64,000 bases of DNA from NCBI GenBank assembly GCA_963556145.1, contig OY744463.1, forward strand, positions 1 to 64,000. Reading direction: 5' to 3'. This DNA is from Hygrocybe punicea. Taxonomy: Eukaryota; Basidiomycota; Agaricomycetes; Agaricales; Hygrophoraceae. The translations under genes and the position numbers were made by a program. The notes beneath the pieces were generated by a model that saw nothing but the letters and a program-made list of their open reading frames with translations, had not been told where the DNA came from and did no database searches. Position 1 is the stretch's first letter. Each line of letters starts with the position of its first letter. This document shows positions 27,679 through 62,632 of this stretch, one piece after another.

Positions 27679-30600
27679 ATGCTACATTCACCGCCTCATT
27701 CGCCTCCACAGTTGATCCATGTCAATACGCCCCCTTCCTCTCCTATTGAGCTTGAGCTTGGCTACGTTGAGGACTGCGACATAATTCAGTTGCCGATGAT
27801 TGAGGGCCCTGGGCCTGTCCAGCTCACACCTGCAAAGCGCACGAGGCAGCCCAAGAGACGGCGACAAAAGAGAACATGACAAGGCTCACCTCAGTCATCA
27901 GAACCATTATTGGACTCACCATTTGATCCTCTGGACCAAGCGGTCTTCTCAGTTCCAAACCAGAATAGCAGTGTCGAGGATTTCAATCTCGACCCACATC
28001 AGACTTCCGAAACTGCTGAACACGAAAATCTGGATCAATACATTGACCTTGTTCAAGCTGACTGCCAGGGATTTTATCAGATTGCACAGACAGTGTTTGT
28101 TGTACAAGGGTGGGATGCAAAGACGATTTCGGGCACCGTAAGCACAATCTAGAACAACTTGAGCAAGAACGATGGCTCATATTCATTTGAAGTCAATGTG
28201 GTATAACCTTCAACGCAAGAAGATCGGTGATGAGTGGACCATTGCATGTTTCTGTCCATACAAAAAGGGTTGCGTTCATTATTACTTCGCGAGGGACTAT
28301 GGTGACGAATATTTTCTGAACAATGACTTGGAGATTCTCAATCAAGGTGAGCCAAAAATATCAACCATGGATTGCAGATTGATTGTTCTTACTAGATCAC
28401 GAAGACGCCATTCTATTTACCCGTGAACCAGCAAGTAACGAAGATGAATTTTTGAATCGATTTTCAGTAACATCGCCTGGACGGACAGCAGTGAAGGATC
28501 GTACAATCGTGACACACACCGGTGCAGACAGTGGGGCAGGAGTCTGGAGCTGTTCAAAAGACCGTGGCAACGGATGTCCTCATATCAAGAAGGCACGGAT
28601 TCAGCTGCAAAGGTTGATTCACGCAAACACCAATGCAACAGACAATAATGTAGAATTGGAGGTCCTAGACGATGGTGATGCTGGTGCGACTCTCCATCCC
28701 CTCCCAATGTTGCCTCAGCCCTAACCTGATCTAGTGCCCCATGTCTTTGGTGCAGCCGCACGAGTCAAGAGAACGATCTCGCATTTACCAGTACTTCCGC
28801 CACTGTGGGCTTCCCTTCCTAATGATCCACAACTTTATCCACGCTGTCTCTTTGATCTCAAACAGCTTCCATCTGTACTCACCTTGAGTCCCAATGCCAG
28901 ATGTGTTTGTTCCCGCAGCGCATACTCCAACTCACAGCCATCGGAGAGGCAACAGTGTGTAATCTATGCACTATCAGGCGGACATTATGCCCAGGTTGAA
29001 CTACAGCACTGCTCTTGGTGTCCACCCCGCCTCCGTCGCTTCATAGGTCCCGAAACCCGGGACATGGGACTCTTTAATTACAACAACCGAATCCTTGTTA
29101 CACACGACCTCCTTGATGAATACACAAGTGCATATACGTCCTCAGAAACCCCATTCATTGCCTGGGTCACAGTTGTCTCACGGCGTTATCAGATTCACTC
29201 CCCTCAAATGCCGTTTCTCAATGAGAAGATGTTTCGGGCCATTTGGTTCTCTTACGTTCAGGTGCAAGACCTTGATACCGACATGCAATGCCCAAGCTGT
29301 GGTCCCGAGCCCAATGAAACCATTTGGGATGGTGTCACGTTGGCGTTCAATCAAAAGTACCTCCTTCCTTCTCTCCGACCGCCTACAGCCTTCCACGAGC
29401 ATGCACTTCAACGCGATCAAGTTCGTTATCGAGCTGGCCAGCAGTTGATTCCTGATCCCAAGGTTCGGAAAACTGTACGGCATGTTCTTGAAGGCAGATC
29501 GCTGGTGCTTGATTCCGATGAAGAGGCGGATGACATTCATGAAGTTGATGATGATACCACCACTCGTACTGCCTCTAGTCTCAAGGCTGCGAATCAACTC
29601 ATTGATCGGGTGAATGCAATACCTGGGTTGTGTGAAGCATTGCGTCACATGGAGCTATCCCTCGGTGACCTATTCGATGCATACTTTGGCATACATACTT
29701 TGACCCAACGGAAGAAACCACCTTCTGAGTACCGGAGGCTTTTTACGCAGGTAACCCGATGAGTTCCTTGCCGTTGCCAACCAAAATACTGAAGTTTTCA
29801 TTCAGCTCAGCGCCGAGGAGTCAGTCTTGCAGATGGCAAACCGTCCAGCTCTCAACTCTCTTGCAAGCTTTGTTTCTCAGCCAAATTCACACAATTCATC
29901 CCTCCTTGTGGCCATACCATCTATATACGACGTTCTTCGATATCATGAATCCAAGCAGGAGCCATACCCTCCCTCATTATTGAGCTTGTGCTCGTGGATT
30001 TTGCAGAGAGGCTGGGGTGCATTGACTGGACTAATAGTTCACGCAGTGCCACCTATTGACCCAGAGGCACGAGAAACTGACCCGGGCTGGAAGCTTGTGA
30101 GTGTTCGAACTGTTCAATGACTGCAAGTGTTCACAACTTTCATAGAGTGGGTGTTGCTACGGACTACCACAGCTTCGTCATCGACCTCAATACCCATTCC
30201 TCAAACATGACCGCCAAAACGAACCAGGCGGCCGTCGCAGAGCTAAGTGCTCAAAATACTATTCAAAGTATGGGGAGAAGAGACTCACAGGAGGTATCAT
30301 GTGTGCGTGGTGCACTCATAGCATTTGTTATGGGTTTCACTGCATTCCCCGGGGTGAAGGTCGGAATGATGTATTCTCCGCAATCGTAACACGCTGGCCC
30401 AAGGCACCGAAGACAGTAGTTTACGATTTTGCCTGTGCCCTTGGGCCTTACTGCATGGTTCGGGAACCCGAATTCTTCGCCGATACCCTTTTCGTTATCG
30501 ATGCATTCCACTCAAAGGGTCACACAAAATGTTCTCCAGCAGCTTTTCTTACGACTTATGCCAACGTGGATCCCCGCCTCGCCCATGTCAATTCCAGCGC

Positions 30601-39250: not shown

Positions 39251-39397
39251 TGAGCAAAGCGGTTAATGTGGGAAATGGTTCGTTTTGATATATCTTGTAC
39301 CTTTTTATCGTGGCTGAGTTTACAATGATACAGGACCACACGTGTTCTCACTCAGGCCGCCAACCTCACAGCCAACATACGCCAGCTCAATCCATCA
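39251..39397. promoter_or_regulatory. Divergent promoter of the two element genes
   Basis: Only 147 bp lie between the two start codons, so regulation is probably shared. No clear TATA box is seen; tgatatatcttg at about 39285 is a weak candidate for the - gene. Confidence 0.4.
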
Positions 39398-42300
39398 ATG
39401 CAGAGAATAAAGAAGTTCTTCAAACCTCTCCAGTTTCCATGCCCCCACCCAGGATGCAACAGATACTTCCGAAGCCGATCCGGCCATACGCAGCACTTAA
39501 ATACTCACATAAAACCACCGCCGAATCATCCTCCCGTACAAACACCACCTCGCGACACCCCATCTCAACGGGATGACACACCGTCTCAACGGGATGACAC
39601 ACTGAATTATGATAATCATGATCTTGATCGTGGCTCACCTAACCCTCATGTGTGGATGGCTGACGGACAATTTATCATTAACCACCCCATCATCGACGGT
39701 GAGTCAACTCCAGGTATGCTTGCACTTGCCATATTGATGCCAAATGTGATAGGCACCCCTTGCGATCCTGAAGGTGATGACCTTCCACCCAATACTCCCC
39801 CTTTCCCATCTACTATCAAAGCTATGAATGATTATTCGCCATATGCGGGCCGGGCCGAGTTCGAATTGGCAGATTTTCTGTTCCATGACGTTGAGATGTC
39901 TGCGGGTAAAATCAACCGACATATGGAATTGCTAGCCGCTTTATATCCTGAGTCGGATCCACCTTTTGCGGATGAAAAGGAGCTATATTCTACCATAGAC
40001 GCTACACAGCTTGGCGATGCACCGTGGAAGTCGTTTGAAGTAGAATATGCCAGTGAAATAGAGGCAGAGGATCCGCCACCTTGGAAAACGGCCACCTATG
40101 ATGTTTGGCATCGCGATCTTTTGGACGTGATGGAATCCCAGCTCAGCAACCCTGATTTCGCCAAAGAGATGGACTATGCCCCCAAACGTGTCTACAAGAA
40201 TGCCAAACGACAGTACACCGATTTGTTCTCTGGGAATTGGGCATGGGAGCAGGCGGTAAGCTGCCCAATTGGTAATCTAACTGAAACTAACAACCCTTGA
40301 AATGACAGGACCTCATTGCCGAAGACCCAGAAAATCATGGTGCTATGTTTGCACCTATCGTGTTAGGCAGCGACAAAACAACCGTGTCAGTCGCCACTGG
40401 CCAGAATGAATACTATCCACTATATGCATCACTTGGACCTGTACATAATAATGTCCGTCGAGCACATCGAAATGCTGTGACATTGGTGGGCTTTCTTGCG
40501 ATTGCAAAGAGTGAGTTTTTTTGTTGTCCTTAGGTTCGGCAACTAACCTCCCTGGCCCAGCTGATCGTGAGTTTCAAGATGACCCGGATTTCCGCCGCTT
40601 TCGCCGACAACTGTTTCACACATCCCTGGCACATATTCTTCAATCCCTCAAACCACATATGATCAAGCCACGCGTCACCCGATGTGGTGACGGACACTTC
40701 CGCCGTGTCATTTACGGTGTGGGACCATATATTGTGGATTACCCCGAACAGGCATTACTGGCCTGTATAGTTCAGGGCTGGTGTCCAAAGTAAGTCTACA
40801 GTTGTCATTTTAAACCCATGCACTTCGCTGATTGAATATTCAGGTGTCTTATACCAGCAGATAAACTGGATTCGGCGGAACCATGTGGGCTTCGATCACA
40901 TGTGCATACGGATGCACTTCAAGAGGCGTTCACCGCTCAGGAACTATGGAATGGGTATGGTGTGGTCGGCGATGTCACAGTATGTTAGCCGATGTCGCTA
41001 AAAGATATCTTTATTTACTCCAATCAAACAGCCATTTACAGTATACTTCCCGCGGGCCGATATCCATGAGCTCTTGTCACCCGATATCCTCCACCAAGTC
41101 ATCAAAGGATCATTCAAGGACCACCTCGTAACCTGGGTGGTTGACTATATAGAACACACACACACACCGGCCAATGCACGCAAGATGCTGGCTGATATAG
41201 ACCGTCGAATAGCGGCTGCCCCTGCCTTCCCTGGTCTACGTCGGTTCCACCAGGGCCGAAACTTCAAACAATGGACCGGTGATGATTCCAAGGCACTTAT
41301 GAAGGTATATTATAGCCTCTATAAAATTATTGTACCTCATTGCTCTCAACAGGTCTTTTTGCCGGCAATTGTTGGTTATGTACCTGACCAAATGGTCCGT
41401 GCAATAAGTTCATTCATGGACTTCTGTTATTATGTACGCCGGTCAGTTGTAGACGAGGACACGTTATGTGCAATTGACATGGCTCTGGCCAACTTCCGAC
41501 GAGACCGTGTTATCTTTGTTGACACTGGTGTCCGTAACAACTTCGTACTCCCTCGACAACATTCCCTCGACCACTACCGACGCGGCATACAACAGTTCGG
41601 GGCCCTCAATGGCCTTTGTTCTTCAATCACCGAGTCAAAACACATAAAGGCTGTCAAAAAGCCCTGGCGACGATCGAGCCGCTGGAAAGCGCTGGGCCAA
41701 ATGTTACTCATTAATCAAAGGCTTGACAAGCTTGCGGCGGCTAAGGTCGACTTTGCTCACCGTAAAATGCTTGACGGCCCAAGCACTGGGATACCTGTGA
41801 TTGTCGACGTGGCCCCTCTTGCCCTCGTGTTGCCCACTGTCAACGAGACAGGTAACGATGATGACGTGGACGAGGGCCCGGTGGATGGAAACAGATACGA
41901 GGGTGAAGTTTCGCTGGCAAGAACCAAAGGTACGTGTAATGTGTCTATATGTTAATTCATAACTCAAACCCATGACAGCACGAGGTTATCCGGGCCATGT
42001 GAAGGTACTCATGCTCTACATCCAGCAACCACGCCTTCAAGAACATATTGGCCGCTTCCTTTATGATGTATTACATCCGGATTCCATAATTCCGGGTGCC
42101 GACGTTTCTCTAGAAGACTGTCCAGTGTTTTCAGGCCAAGTACGTGTGTATCATTCGGCCACCTCGATCTACTATGCACCCAGTGATGTCTCGGGAGTTG
42201 GTGGTATGCACCGGGAGGTTATTCGAGCCACACCATCATGGTATAAAGGTGCAGCGCGATACGACACAGTCTTTATTGCCAAAGACCAGGAACAGGACGG

Positions 42301-57175: not shown

Positions 57176-57305
57176 CTTACATTCGATAGTAACGATCAAT
57201 TGTATGCAAACAGCATGTGTGTATATCACCCCCTGTTTGGCTACTTCGAGGAGAAGGCGCCCCTTCACGTTCAGAAGAATGTCAAATCCCATGGACCGCT
57301 ATTTA

Positions 57306-57330
57306 CTGTACTAAATCAATCAATTCGTCA
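57306..57330. repeat. Left terminal inverted repeat, pogo-like element
   Basis: 25 bp, complementary to 61440-61464 without mismatch by eye. The outermost bases are ctgtactaaatc, preceded by TA. Confidence 0.95.
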
Positions 57331-57451
57331 GTCACGCGTCACAGGCAGGTCGAAATTGACGAAATGTCACACCTGTCCCGCGTCACAGGCATGGGTGACG
57401 AAAATTCAAAACAAGTCTTATTTTTAAGCTATTATTAGATGAAAAATAGAA

Positions 57452-60400
57452 CTACGTGGCCTCGACATCGGATCCCTCGTCATCATTATGGCGCCAGAAT
57501 GTCTTTGCGCTGTAGAGCTTATTCGCCACCTTTATCCTCTTCCCTCGACCAGTGTTTGTCTCAGTTGGCCTAGCCTCATGGTGAGCTTCTTCGACAGGCG
57601 TGTGAATGATGGCCGGAACTTCGTTGATGCCGTTGTCAACAGGATCCTCGTTTTCATCCTCGGCCTTCCTGTTCAATACCAAACCACCACCAGCTTGAGT
57701 AGCCAAGCCATCCGGTCTCTTCCCTTCAACAAGATCGGATAGGACAGCAGCCATACCAACACTGCTGTCGTCACCCAGGTCATCATCATCCCCATCTTCA
57801 AAGGCCATGTCTTCATCAACGTCGTCGGCTGGTCCAGGCAACTGACTATCGGTTTTCTCTTGTTCTAGCTCAGCCCAAAACATCGGATCCTCAGTTTTCA
57901 AGTTGCGGAGCTTCTCGCGGGCTAGAAATGATGTCAAACTCTCATACGAGAGGTTCCAGGTTCGGACGTGGCACAGATGAAATGCCTGGGAGGATCAAAA
58001 TATTCGACATGCAGGCCAACTTGCATACATGTGAGTCAACACACCTTCTTTACAAGGGTTTCATTGCCGATACATTTTTGTGCATTCCAGAGCCATGCAA
58101 CACTGCAATCTCGAAGTGATGCCAAGCGCTTGTCAATCGCAATTACATCAGCCTCCTCCTCTATCTGTTTCACCATCTCTTCTACGACAGCTTCATGGTA
58201 GGAGCGCTTAATGGAGTGCTTGAATGGTCGCTGGATCCCGGTATCACATGGCTGATGTACACCAGTGCATCCGCCGGGTACGTAGTCGAGGATGATATTG
58301 GGGTGATTTTCAGCCATCCAGGTGCGGAACTCCTGGGAACGATGAACGGCCCATACGTCAATCTGCAGCAGTGCCTTCTGACTTTCCGGGAGCCCCAGCT
58401 TCGTCTTCTCCTCTTCAAAATAAGGTGCGAGGATGTGATCCACCCATAAACGCATTGTACGCTGATTGGACCAATAGGTCTTTGTCCTGGAGTATTCAAG
58501 ACGCATCCCTGCACCAATCAGGTCATTGTAGTGAGGGGCCGACTTTGAAGGACACGATCGGTCAGTTTTGCCAACGTAGATTGCCTGGAAGGGTAAGAGT
58601 GTGCCATTATTTGCAATGGCAACCATCACTGTAAATGCTTGCTTCTCATCGCCACCCACCAGGGTCACTTGCTTCGCGTTAGTCGGTGCATATGTGAACT
58701 TGTCACCTGGTGCAAATGTGACTTGAGTTTGGTCCGCATTGACGTAGAGCGATGAAGGTATGTCGTATTCCTTGATACTATAGGCCTTTCGCAGGAATGA
58801 CTTCTCACACTTGTCCTCCCAGTCCTCCGGAATTTTTTGGGCCGCCCGTGTTGCCTTTCTCTGGGACCATTTCAGATTATGCTTGACCCATTTGCGGACG
58901 AAGTTATCGGATGCACGGAATGTTGACCGGTCACGATACTGGACCTCAAGAATGATAGGCTTCATCAGCATGATGGTTGCCAGCATCACACCACGTATGG
59001 TGATAACGGAGAGCGGGGCAGATACATTACGCAGGGCAAGGAGCCTTCTCTTGATCATGTCGACGACCTCAGGGTAGTGTCCCTAAGGTTACAGTCAGCT
59101 AAGGTTCGTGTCAGTCCAGTTGAGCCTCACCAGAACACCACGCTGGCCACCTTTATTATGCCCAGGATCGTTGCCTTGTTCGACCTTCTTCATCATTTTG
59201 TCCGTCCACCGAGGCCTCTCACCGGTCCGGTCAATCCATGAATTAATTGTGGTCCACCTGAGACCAGCAAATACTTCTGGATCCCGCTTCTGCAAGACTC
59301 TCACAATCTCGGACGAGCTCATTGTCCAGCCGACCTGTTTTGCTGCGAGCTGGATTTGAGACCAACAGAAGGGTGTGTGCCAGTTGTGGTATTTGGCCGG
59401 CCTAACAGGTACCTTTTTCTTCCGTCCAGATTTCTTCTTGTTTGCTGCTTTGATCTTCATTTTGAGAGCACGAGCAGGGCGGGTAAGTTCAGCTATGGTC
59501 ATACGCATTTTCTTTGAACTTGAATCATCTTCAAGCTGAACGTCGACTATCTGAAATATCATGACCAATTGGATCAGTCTTTTCCTACGACAACGGAGCT
59601 TTCACGTTACTTTTCGTTTCTTGCCACCTGGGCTCCGGATGCCCTGCTGGATATCCCTGTCCTTTTTCCGACTTCTTTCCTTCTGTTTCCGGAGACGTGC
59701 GCCCTCCCTTTTAACTTCAGTCTTGATATGTGTTGCAAGTTCATTCTGATGCTGATCTTCTTCACGCTGCCGTTCGATTTGCTCTTGTTCCTGTGCTAAC
59801 TGCAAATTGTAGACTTCCACAGTACATGGCTTGAAGAAGCGGAGCAGCCCACGAGGCTCGCTCCCCTGAGACAATTCCAGCCCTGCCCGAATGGATGATG
59901 TAGCTTGAATTTTTGATACCGTTGGTGCTTCCACTGCTTTGCCGTCCGGTCCCCTTGATTGACCAGTTGGCAGTAGCAAGTCCGAGAGGGTCCTGTCGTC
60001 ATTAGATGTCTCAGCTGTCTCCACCTCTGTCGTGACCATCTCTTCATCTGTCCCAATCATCTCAACCTCTGACTCACTGTCTGACATCTTGGCACCCTGA
60101 GCAGGCTTCGATTTCTGAGATATCAGATGAGTCCATTCGACAAAAGTTAGAAAGATGATGTGTTGCTCACCTCAGGCTGACTGAGATGTCGCTCGACTAT
60201 CCTCAGTAAGACTTCTAGCCTCGCATCTGCTACCTGACCTGCATCTATCTTCAGATGTTTTCCCATGGAAAAAAATGCGACAAGAGCATTCCATGACAAG
60301 AGACCACACGAATGTCCATCCCTCTGTGAAGAGATCGGCAAAAGCTTGTGTTTGAAGACAACCCCGCTATGGAAGTGAGTCCACCAGTCAAGTCTGTGCT

Positions 60401-61298
60401 TGACGTCATCTGGGATCTCGTCTCCCAGGGAATCTCCATACCATATAGTGCTTGATGCGAAGTCGAGGACAGCTGCTACCCAATGTGTCTGCTTGAGGTT
60501 GATAAGGAATCCCGTCTGGTCTTGGATGCCAGTGACCATGGCATGGCCCTGCTGGCGGTGCCAACGGAAGGACCTGTCAGTTGCATATTTCTCTGGATCA
60601 TTCTTGCCCTGTTTGATCTTCTCATAGAACCACGATGTTTCGACTTCCACTGACAGAACACCCTCCTGCTCGAGGTCCATGCGTAGCAGATCAAGCATCT
60701 GGTTGGCATGCTCATCTTTTAACCACTGCGTGCCAATGTATTTTGCAAGCCCAGAGATGTCATCTTCGGAATTTGAAGTGAATCCTCGGATGCATCCAGA
60801 CCATGGTAAGCAGCTTAATGCTTTAAAAACTCGGTCAATGACAGCCCGTGATCCAGCTTCTTGATCCTTCAGGTTATGCTGGCGTGTTTGCAGTGTGTTG
60901 TTAGCTGCTGCCCAAAGCTCTTGAGTCTGCCGTATGGTTATTGACTGTTCCCAGTAGGAAACTATCCATAAGGGATAGGTCATGTTGGGACTCGCAGCAT
61001 GTGGGGACCATGCATGTGGGCATTTGATAGAAGATGCCTCTGTATCCCTGCGTTGAAGAGCATCGCGTAACTTTTGGACAATAGCCTCCGGTGGGGTGGG
61101 AATTTGGGAGATTATGTGTGAGTCCGTTGCGGCTGGTGTCCTGCTGTCGAAGTAGGGCTGCACATTATCATATTTGCACACCGAAAGCACCATTGGCAGT
61201 GGATATTGGAGCAACCCCAAGACAGAAAGTTGTGGATCAGGCAGAAGTTGGCTACGAAAAGCAGCTGGAATTATTAGGGCATTTTTACTGGCACACAT
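57452..61298 (-). CDS. Ulp1/C48 SUMO-peptidase fused to a DDE_1 (pogo-type) transposase, about 1207 aa
   Basis: I read five exons: 60171-61298, 59611-60114, 59131-59550, 58045-59082 and 57452-57985. All four introns (48-60 bp) are canonical and in phase 0; the total is 1208 codons with no internal stop. Exon 1 ends in a Ulp1-like domain: THWVAAVLDF (His272), WYGDSLG (Asp289), SSQRDGHSCG (Gln325, Cys331). Exon 2 is acidic, then a Lys/Glu coiled coil. Exon 3 is basic with HTH-like helices. Exon 4 has an HTH_Tc5-like segment (DNFVRKWVKHNLKW) and the DDE_1 core: VNADQT (Asp801), LQIDVWAVHRS (Asp926), HQPCDTGIQRPFK (Asp964). Exon 5 is an acidic tail. The first in-element Met is uncertain; 61193 is an alternative. 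A frame open upstream runs through the TIR, so the exact start needs RNA evidence. Confidence 0.88.
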
Positions 61299-61439
61299 AG
61301 TGGGACGAGGACAGGTGGTGCCTTGCAAAAAAATTAAATTAGGGGGACACAGGCGTGGCGAAATGTGGCCTGTGTCACAGGTCACACCCCAACCTGACGA
61401 AATTTTGATTTCATCAGGCATGTCACAGGTCACATGGGG

Positions 61440-61464
61440 TGACGAATTGATTGATTTAGTACAG
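61440..61464. repeat. Right terminal inverted repeat, pogo-like element
   Basis: 25 bp ending gatttagtacag, followed by TA. It is the inverted partner of 57306-57330. Confidence 0.95.
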
Positions 61465-61466
61465 TA

Positions 61467-61977
61467 CTTCACCTTAGGCAGCACTCTAGGGATGTTCCCA
61501 CGGCCTCAAAGGGGGGGTTCTTATGTGAGGGAGAAGTGGCCTTCGAGGCCGGGTCTCGGGAGGATCCTTCGCCATAATTTTTGCTGACCTCCCAGAGCAT
61601 TTTCTGGGGTCCTATAAATATGTTTTCTGAGCATTTGATGAGCATCCACATATGTCTTATAAGTGAATGTTTTTTCTTCGAGCCTCCTAGACATTTTTTG
61701 AACCTCCTAGAACTTCCTAGACATTACATAGCTACTATAATAGTACTAATTCCACTCCCATGCCCCTGTCAATCGGTAGTATCCCAAGAGCAGGCGCTGT
61801 TGCTGAGTGGTGGTCACAAGCAGATGACCATCGGCCCCAACGTCGCCCTCCACCTCCCGGATTCCACCTGAGCTGCTCTGGCCCTCGGTGAGGCAATTGA
61901 ACCTCTCAGACACTAGAGGACCTCCCAGTACTCCAGGGCCACCGTCCAGCGGAAATGCTGTGTGCACCTAAATTAAT
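61467..61977. other. Spacer with a TATA-like motif
   Basis: No gene is supported. tcctataaatatg at about 61612 could be a promoter of something lost to the insertion or off-window. Confidence 0.45.
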
Positions 61978-62632
61978 GAGGGAGAGGGAGAGGAGAGAGC
62001 AGGGAGGGAGCAGGGAGGGAATGGGGAGGGAGCAGGGAGGGAACGGGGAGGGAGCAGGGAGGGAGCAGGGAGGGAGCAGGGAGGGAACAGGGAGGGAGCA
62101 GGGAGGGAACGGGGAGGGAGCAGGGAGGGAGCAGGGAGGGAGCAGGGAGGGAACGGGGAGGGAGCAGGAGGGAGCGGGGAGGGAGCAGGAGGGAGCGGGG
62201 ACAGAGAGAATGAGGAGAGGGAGGAAACCAGGAGGGAGCGGGGACAGAGAGAACGAGGAGATGGAGGAAACCGGCAGCCTGAGGGAGCGGGAGGGAGCAG
62301 GGACAGAGCGGGGGAAGGAGGGAGAGGGAGAGAGCATGGAGAGAGCGTGTGGGGAGGAGAGGGAGAGAGAGGGAACAGGGAGGAGAGGGAGAGCGCGAGT
62401 GGAGGAGCAGGGAGAGAGGGAATGGGGGAGGGAGAGCGCGCATGGAGGTGGAGGAGAGAGGGAATGGAGAGGGAAGAGAGAGAGCAGAGCAGGGAGAGAA
62501 ATACAGCGGGGGAGAGAGGGACTGGGGGACGGAGAGCGGAGAGGGAGGGAACGGGAAGCAGAGAGGGAGCGAGGGATCGGGGAGCGGGAGGGAGAGAGAG
62601 AGCAGGGAGAAGAGGGAGAGGGAGAGAACTGA
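61978..62632. repeat. Polypurine tract (gggagca/gggaac)n, about 650 bp
   Basis: The + strand is almost pure G/A, dominated by gggagggagcagggagggaa-type units of 8-18 bp, grading into gagagg-rich sequence. All the long open frames here, on both strands, are compositional (Gly/Arg/Glu on +, Pro/Ser/Leu on -). Such tracts can form triplex (H-DNA) or G-quadruplex structures and often stall polymerases. Confidence 0.92.

Follow-up and report, generated by a model that had tools for sequence, protein, structure and literature searches.

A TA-flanked transposon of Hygrocybe punicea predicted to encode a Ulp1-like peptidase and a DDE_1 transposase in one protein

Element and gene structure

The window analyzed in this work is a stretch of 64,000 nucleotides from the basidiomycete Hygrocybe punicea (contig OY744463.1 of assembly GCA_963556145.1, positions 1 to 64,000). 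Near its right end, a 4.16 kb element (57306-61464) is delimited by perfect terminal inverted repeats (TIRs) of 25 bp, extending to 27 bp when the TA flanking each side of the element is counted. The minus strand of the element carries a gene predicted to consist of five exons (1207 codons) separated by four GT-AG introns of 48-60 bp, all in phase 0. Exon 1 codes for a C48/Ulp1-like peptidase and exon 4 for a DDE_1 transposase core (Table 1). The TIRs and TA duplications of the original prediction, which was made from the sequence alone, proved to be exact, and the seven catalytic residues named there (His272, Asp289, Gln325 and Cys331 of the peptidase; Asp801, Asp926 and Asp964 of the transposase) all occupy these positions in the 1207-residue product.

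The single phase-0-spliced gene of the original prediction agrees with the predicted five-exon model and is displayed as a single frame by relatives of the element (loci are given as contig:position). A divergent copy at C1:8912300 lacks intron 1 and has a single 603-codon frame that extends from the Ulp1 domain to the charged region, linker included. A copy of the same subfamily at C34:6199000 (L050) is likewise contiguous across the exon 1-2 boundary in the part examined. An intron fits the C33 subfamily copy at the exact site of intron 1 and is missing there from the C1 subfamily copy. P0065, a protein from a JGI contig, runs over 773 continuous residues from the Ulp1 domain through the linker and presumed DNA-binding region into the beginning of the DDE core; this frame is apparently unspliced, since the site of intron 3 is read through. 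One polypeptide is therefore supported for the window copy by the exon continuity of its relatives, the splicing of the window copy itself being a prediction.

The subterminal GTGACNNGTGAC repeats listed in Table 1 occur in three subfamilies: the C1 subfamily copy also has them near its two ends, and the C33 copy near one end only. The ACGCGT cell-cycle box was considered as well and dropped as too weak, each of the three elements examined having 1-3 sites.

Table 1. Features of the element and of its predicted gene (window coordinates)
Feature	Coordinates	Strand	Basis
TA target-site duplication, left	57304-57305	.	sequence; single TA in empty sites of the C6 sister copy
TIR, 25 bp, left	57306-57330	+	sequence; equal ends (0-1 mismatch) in two further full copies
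Subterminal GTGACNNGTGAC repeat, candidate transposase-binding site	57331-57342	-	sequence
Exon 5 (residues 1031-1207): acidic C-terminal tail and stop	57452-57985	-	gene model
Exon 4 (residues 685-1030): DDE_1 catalytic core	58045-59082	-	gene model, Pfam, fold model, Foldseek
Exon 4 catalytic codons	Asp801 58732-58734; Asp926 58357-58359; Asp964 58243-58245	-	
Exon 3 (residues 545-684): presumed DNA-binding region, by position only	59131-59550	-	gene model
Exon 2 (residues 377-544): variable linker and charged region	59611-60114	-	gene model, linker comparison
LLRFF (residues 466-470): short recurrent PIP-box-like linker motif	59833-59847	-	pattern and alignment
Intron 1, predicted, between peptidase and transposase parts	60115-60170	-	56 bp, GT-AG, phase 0
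Exon 1 (residues 1-376): N-terminal region and C48/Ulp1 peptidase	60171-61298	-	gene model, Pfam, fold model, Foldseek, tetrad conservation
Exon 1 catalytic codons	His272 60483-60485; Asp289 60432-60434; Gln325 60324-60326; Cys331 60306-60308	-	
Subterminal GTGACNNGTGAC repeat	61374-61385	-	sequence
Subterminal GTGACNNGTGAC repeat	61422-61433	-	sequence
TIR, 25 bp, right	61440-61464	-	sequence
TA target-site duplication, right	61465-61466	.	sequence

Peptidase and transposase domains

Comparison of the whole protein to Pfam returned Peptidase_C48 at residues 191-304 (E 1.9e-5, 25.1 bits, cut-off 20.7) and DDE_1 at residues 832-994 (E 1.2e-11, 44.9 bits, cut-off 22). Both of the domains anticipated by the original prediction are thus found above the curated cut-offs on one protein. 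Each cut-off is also passed by seven of eight homologues, P0048 (17.9 bits) falling below that of the peptidase and P0023 below that of the transposase.

A profile search with the Ulp1 half detected SENP1 at 7.5e-12. The AlphaFold2 model of exon 1, built on an alignment of 10 sequences, displays a mean pLDDT of 89.8 and produced 74 Foldseek matches to the PDB at E<=0.001. The highest ranking is 1tgz, SENP2-SUMO1 (5.6e-10), and yeast Ulp1 is matched at 2.5e-9 (TMt 0.76 for Ulp1 2hl8). A Ulp1/SENP fold is supported for exon 1 by this model. The catalytic tetrad was followed in an alignment of 28 sequences, comprising 23 fused proteins (that of the window included), two proteins with Ulp1 only and three genomic copies. 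All 28 have His, Gln and Cys, and 27 have Asp, P0010 being gapped at this position. Since the tetrad is conserved, the peptidase is likely to be active, and homology makes an activity on SUMO likely.

In the transposase half, the three catalytic Asp are kept in 61, 61 and 60 of 65 aligned sequences, the remainder being gaps with the exception of one Asn at the second position. The model of exon 4 (pLDDT 85.2) matched Mos1 (1.0e-5) and Sleeping Beauty (2.9e-5) in Foldseek, the TM-scores over the query being low (about 0.35). On the basis of its DDE_1 core, TA and TIRs, the element is assigned to the IS630-Tc1-mariner/pogo type. As described in the available portions of the corresponding surveys (PMC7386202, PMC7325037), the pogo superfamily (Fot, Lemi, Tigger, pogoR and others) shares with it a DDE_1 core, a TA duplication and TIRs shorter than 40 bp. 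The reported pogo transposases differ in having 300-977 residues, mostly with helix-turn-helix-type domains, as compared to 1207 residues and a DD37D spacing (37 residues between Asp926 and Asp964) in the present case. Membership of Fot, the main fungal pogo family, was rejected on this spacing, as almost all Fot elements described in the portion consulted are DD35D (PMC7386202). DD37D falls inside the ranges published for Lemi (DD29-42D) and pogoR (DD29-59D/E), a comparison made by spacing alone. No Pfam DNA-binding domain, the HTH/CENP-B type included, was detected in the window protein at E<=1 or in the eight homologues at E<=0.1; Mover pogo elements are reported in the same survey to be likewise undetectable by hmmscan (PMC7386202). 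The pogo-type label of the original prediction is therefore retained with respect to the DDE_1 core, the TA duplication and the short TIR, whereas the spacing and the lack of a Pfam DNA-binding domain leave a named pogo family unsupported.

The two domains are joined by a long and variable linker. The pattern [ILVM]xx[FYW][FYWM], chosen after the alignment had been viewed, recurs in 16 of 26 linker segments (GLLRFFK in the window) and in 0.6-19% per segment upon shuffling. Some of the remaining segments contain variants, such as QTTLPF in two Ceratobasidium proteins; P0060 displays none. The Trametes versicolor homologue P0043 possesses a canonical PCNA-binding PIP box, QTSLLSFY, between its peptidase and transposase parts. 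According to the part of PMC4103810 consulted, PCNA is bound by a PIP peptide patterned on DNA ligase and pogo transposase, and binding of PCNA by the linker motif may be offered as a guess. An acidic motif near the C terminus, resembling a SUMO-interacting motif, was dropped as evidence, its pattern being present in only 7 of 23 proteins.

Copies and mobility within the genome

The genome searched for further copies consists of 92.2 Mb in 42 contigs. Two additional full-length copies, 99% identical to the window element, are located on contigs C1 and C6. The three full copies each measure 4163 bp with their TAs, the ends of the sister copies match the window TIRs with 0-1 mismatch and the flanking DNA differs among all three. 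Pairwise comparison reveals 30, 49 and 55 differences, mostly transitions (29, 45 and 52, respectively). Only the window copy is open, premature stops being found at codon 146 of the C1 copy and at codon 782 of the C6 copy. Among the differences restricted to one of the full-length copies (C1, C3 and C6), 50 of 67 are C-to-T or G-to-A changes at CpG. This excess would be explained by cytosine methylation having acted on the copies and, together with the stops of the sister copies, suggests that they are methylated and decaying.

The C6 copy sits in a repeat, other members of which constitute paralogous empty sites with a single TA. The alignment across the junction amounts to 82/85 bases at C1:372600 and 75/81 at C41:2924520; in a third member examined (C1:8460480), the match ends 4 bases past the junction. 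The C1 copy lies within a foldback repeat, and the two members examined align across the junction with CA replacing TA. The check by other copies and empty sites proposed with the original prediction thus yielded two copies with matching ends and empty sites for the C6 copy, but none in this genome for the window copy. Long matches to the left flank of the latter end near 57201, and on its right side another repeat starts at 61469/61470. This separate repeat (61469-61950) is found in four other places with 99-100% identity, beginning 5-6 bp past the right end of the transposon. The arrangement is more than chance, because of the three full copies with matching ends, the empty sites of one of them and the conserved homologues; as judged from its sequence, the element is recently mobile.

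A TIR-flanked relative of 6.7 kb at C40:1858959-1865690 holds only parts of the element (84-93% identity) and represents an interrupted or degraded copy.

Distribution and history of the fusion

Three protein searches returned 66 proteins; about 8000 candidates were scored in each, so that the result is no census. Using profiles made in this work, Ulp1 followed by DDE was recognized in 22 of these proteins in addition to that of the window, DDE only in 42 and Ulp1 only in 2. The Ulp1 stretch has a length of 200 residues or more in 20 of these 23 fused proteins and is partial in the other three. Both domains are present in every one of the 20 database proteins that reach 900 residues. Of the 65 DDE-matching proteins, counting that of the window, 42 have no Ulp1 match; these do not exceed 898 residues, many originate from short contigs, and they may be fragments or truly unfused forms. 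Named Agaricomycetes account for 21 of the 22 fused database proteins, all of them automatic gene models. Among the carriers are Pholiota, Agrocybe, Candolleomyces, Psilocybe, Gymnopilus, Mycena, Tetrapyrgos, Tephrocybe, Trametes, Rhizoctonia and Ceratobasidium. The orders looked up are Agaricales (Agrocybe), Polyporales (Trametes) and Cantharellales (Rhizoctonia), those of the remaining genera being presumed. The combination of PF02902 and PF03184 is already visible in the domain annotations of database proteins. The fusion, considered unusual by the original prediction, consequently recurs across three orders of Agaricomycetes and in public annotations, although no paper describing it was found in the literature searched.

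Trees of the Ulp1 and transposase parts were computed from those fused proteins that have long matches (19 of 23). They have 13 of 16 splits in common, with a distance correlation of 0.92 (Mantel 0.0001). Since the trees are largely congruent, the two halves have been passed on as a unit; the element as a whole may also have been transferred between species.

Within this genome, 56 of 87 exon-4 matches were paired with 58 of 63 exon-1 matches, second pieces and weak rows being left out. For the 27 DDE matches of at least 300 bits (52-100% identity), Ulp1 is located upstream on the same strand within 12 kb in 25 cases, within 2.5 kb in 23 and at 0.9-1.25 kb in 21. Six of eight shorter DDE matches with at least 52% identity also have Ulp1 within 2.5 kb. 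At 39-42% identity, one of seven DDE matches (C34:305500) has a Ulp1 match upstream, a weak one; this locus keeps a Ulp1 frame with the Cys motif, the linker and the transposase in order, and its third catalytic Asp reads Asn. Because the Ulp1 frame is kept there in the same order, the misses in this range may reflect divergence and not absence. At 33-36% identity, none of the ten DDE matches has Ulp1 upstream; inspection of one of these loci, C6:2077500, revealed a 605-codon transposase frame with no Ulp1 motif seen ahead of it. Locus L052 is a clearer Ulp1-less relative than the DDE-only database proteins. The fusion recurs in several subfamilies of this genome. A single gain of Ulp1 at the base of the fused group would most simply account for this distribution, and the fusion is probably old in Agaricomycetes.

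Transposons bearing Ulp1 are already known, and are compared here as they appear in the consulted portions of the cited papers. Ginger1 (PMC2836005) resembles the present element in its single transposase polypeptide with a Ulp1 (PF02902) or OTU peptidase, its TIRs and the introns of some of its genes. It differs by a Gypsy-integrase-like core, a C-terminal peptidase and its occurrence in animals, as opposed to a DDE_1 core and an N-terminal peptidase in fungi. Membership of Ginger1 was rejected, as Pfam at E<=1 gives only DDE_1 and Peptidase_C48, with the peptidase in N-terminal position. Ulp1-like peptidases are also carried by plant and animal Mutator elements (as cited in PMC2836005), DNA transposons of another transposase superfamily. 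CACTA elements (PMC8978399) contain PF02902 within a DNA transposon; they differ by a Transposase_21 core and by a C48 fragment of patchy presence in ORF2. CryptonF and CryptonS (PMC3212892) likewise have a Ulp1-related C48 peptidase, and are tyrosine recombinase elements in which the peptidase is an additional protein of some CryptonS. The original prediction had presented Ulp1 genes in transposons as separate passengers, which agrees with these CryptonS but not with the fused polypeptides of Ginger1. The words protease, peptidase, Ulp and SUMO are absent from the main texts of the two large pogo surveys (PMC7386202, PMC7325037) as available. No description of a pogo-Ulp1 fusion was found in the literature searched, a partial set of titles, abstract starts and passages without Repbase; within these bounds, the DDE_1-core fusion is recurrent and undescribed.

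Proposed function and alternative explanations

We favor, as the probable interpretation, a recently mobile TA-targeting cut-and-paste element whose single Ulp1-linker-DDE protein would remove SUMO locally and so favor mobility. The transposase part would hold the peptidase at the ends of the element, where the GTGACNNGTGAC repeats occur. The peptidase would there strip SUMO from the transposase itself, from silencing factors or from repair and replication proteins, and this local removal would favor excision, repair or escape from repression. That the peptidase acts where the transposase is bound is given roughly even chances. A number of observations weigh against this interpretation. Two of the three full copies have a premature stop, and ten residues set the window copy apart from both sisters, so that its own activity is uncertain. 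No Ulp1 part is seen in the 42 DDE-matching database proteins mentioned above, and more distant relatives in this genome lack one. The Peptidase_C48 match of the window protein reaches only 25.1 bits for a cut-off of 20.7, and exon 1 as a single sequence only attains E 0.025 against solved SUMO proteases. NEDD8 and ubiquitin proteases share the fold, lower in the Foldseek list, which weakens the case for SUMO specificity. A bolder proposal, which we hold to be improbable, is that an old Agaricomycete lineage combines transposase, SUMO protease and PCNA-binding motif in one protein, removing SUMO from PCNA or from other proteins of the fork and of repair at the sites of its insertion, thereby steering the choice of post-excision repair and raising its copy number.

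The element could instead contain two adjacent genes, one for Ulp1 that ends in intron 1 and one for the transposase with Met386 as its start. The unspliced Ulp1 frame does reach a stop soon after the end of exon 1, Met386 lies shortly past the exon 1-2 boundary, and the CryptonS peptidase offers a precedent for C48 as an additional transposon protein (PMC3212892, from the portion available). Both sister copies nevertheless have Thr in place of Met386, which, together with the 603-codon frame and the exact presence or absence of intron 1 between relatives, nearly excludes this arrangement; the contiguous C34:6199000 copy and the 773 continuous residues of P0065 also argue against it, and we consider it very unlikely. 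A domesticated host gene or an assembly fusion, in place of a transposon gene, is hardly credible. The window copy is admittedly the sole uninterrupted frame among the three full copies, but the TIRs, the TA duplications, the empty sites, the dispersal of these copies among different flanks and the presence of the fusion in other species speak for a transposon.

Transposable elements often capture pieces of host genes, and the Ulp1 domain might be such a passenger, devoid of a role in transposition. The long and variable linker and the lack of the domain in more distant relatives of this genome are compatible with this view. A mere passenger would nevertheless be at odds with a tetrad kept in nearly all 28 sequences, with the constant order of the domains and the largely congruent trees, and with the tight pairing of the 27 strongest DDE matches (23 with Ulp1 within 2.5 kb upstream, 21 at 0.9-1.25 kb); we regard it as unlikely. 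It is also rather unlikely that the peptidase targets another ubiquitin-like protein or cuts its own polypeptide to release the transposase, in the manner of viral adenain-like proteases. CE-clan folds do include NEDD8, ubiquitin and viral core proteases, found lower in the same Foldseek list, and Gly-Gly occurs in 11 of 23 linkers, RSPGG of the window among them. SUMO proteases are nevertheless the best matches by both fold and profile, and the other 12 linkers lack any Gly-Gly, so that no common site of that kind exists; auto-processing at a common Gly-Gly was rejected on this count.

The preferred interpretation, local SUMO removal by the transposon's own protein, would concern a peptidase and a transposase held in one chain, with an intact active site, across three orders of mushroom-forming and related fungi. 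To our knowledge, the reason why Ulp1-like peptidases recur in unrelated transposons is not settled. Whether a transposon must remove SUMO in order to move is made directly testable here by one point mutation in one gene. Should this removal be needed, the protein of the element itself would tie SUMO to the control of fungal transposons.

Other repeats of the window and genome

Elsewhere in the window, an open frame at 28725-29762 contains a CxC4 cysteine cluster (Pfam 1.4e-45) of the type linked with KDZ transposases. Of two open frames at 39329-41955, one matches the Plavaka transposase model at its start and the other at its end (Pfam 5e-30 and 4.9e-16). Purine-rich tandem repeats at 61984-62626 consist of about 20 copies of the 11-bp unit GAGGGAGCAGG followed by related units, and are the probable reason for the long open frames that both strands show in this region. 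Genome-wide, 27 of 68 Peptidase_C48 matches lie in 129-codon frames in which only the Cys-motif end of the profile is matched, possibly corresponding to another repeat family with a C48 exon.

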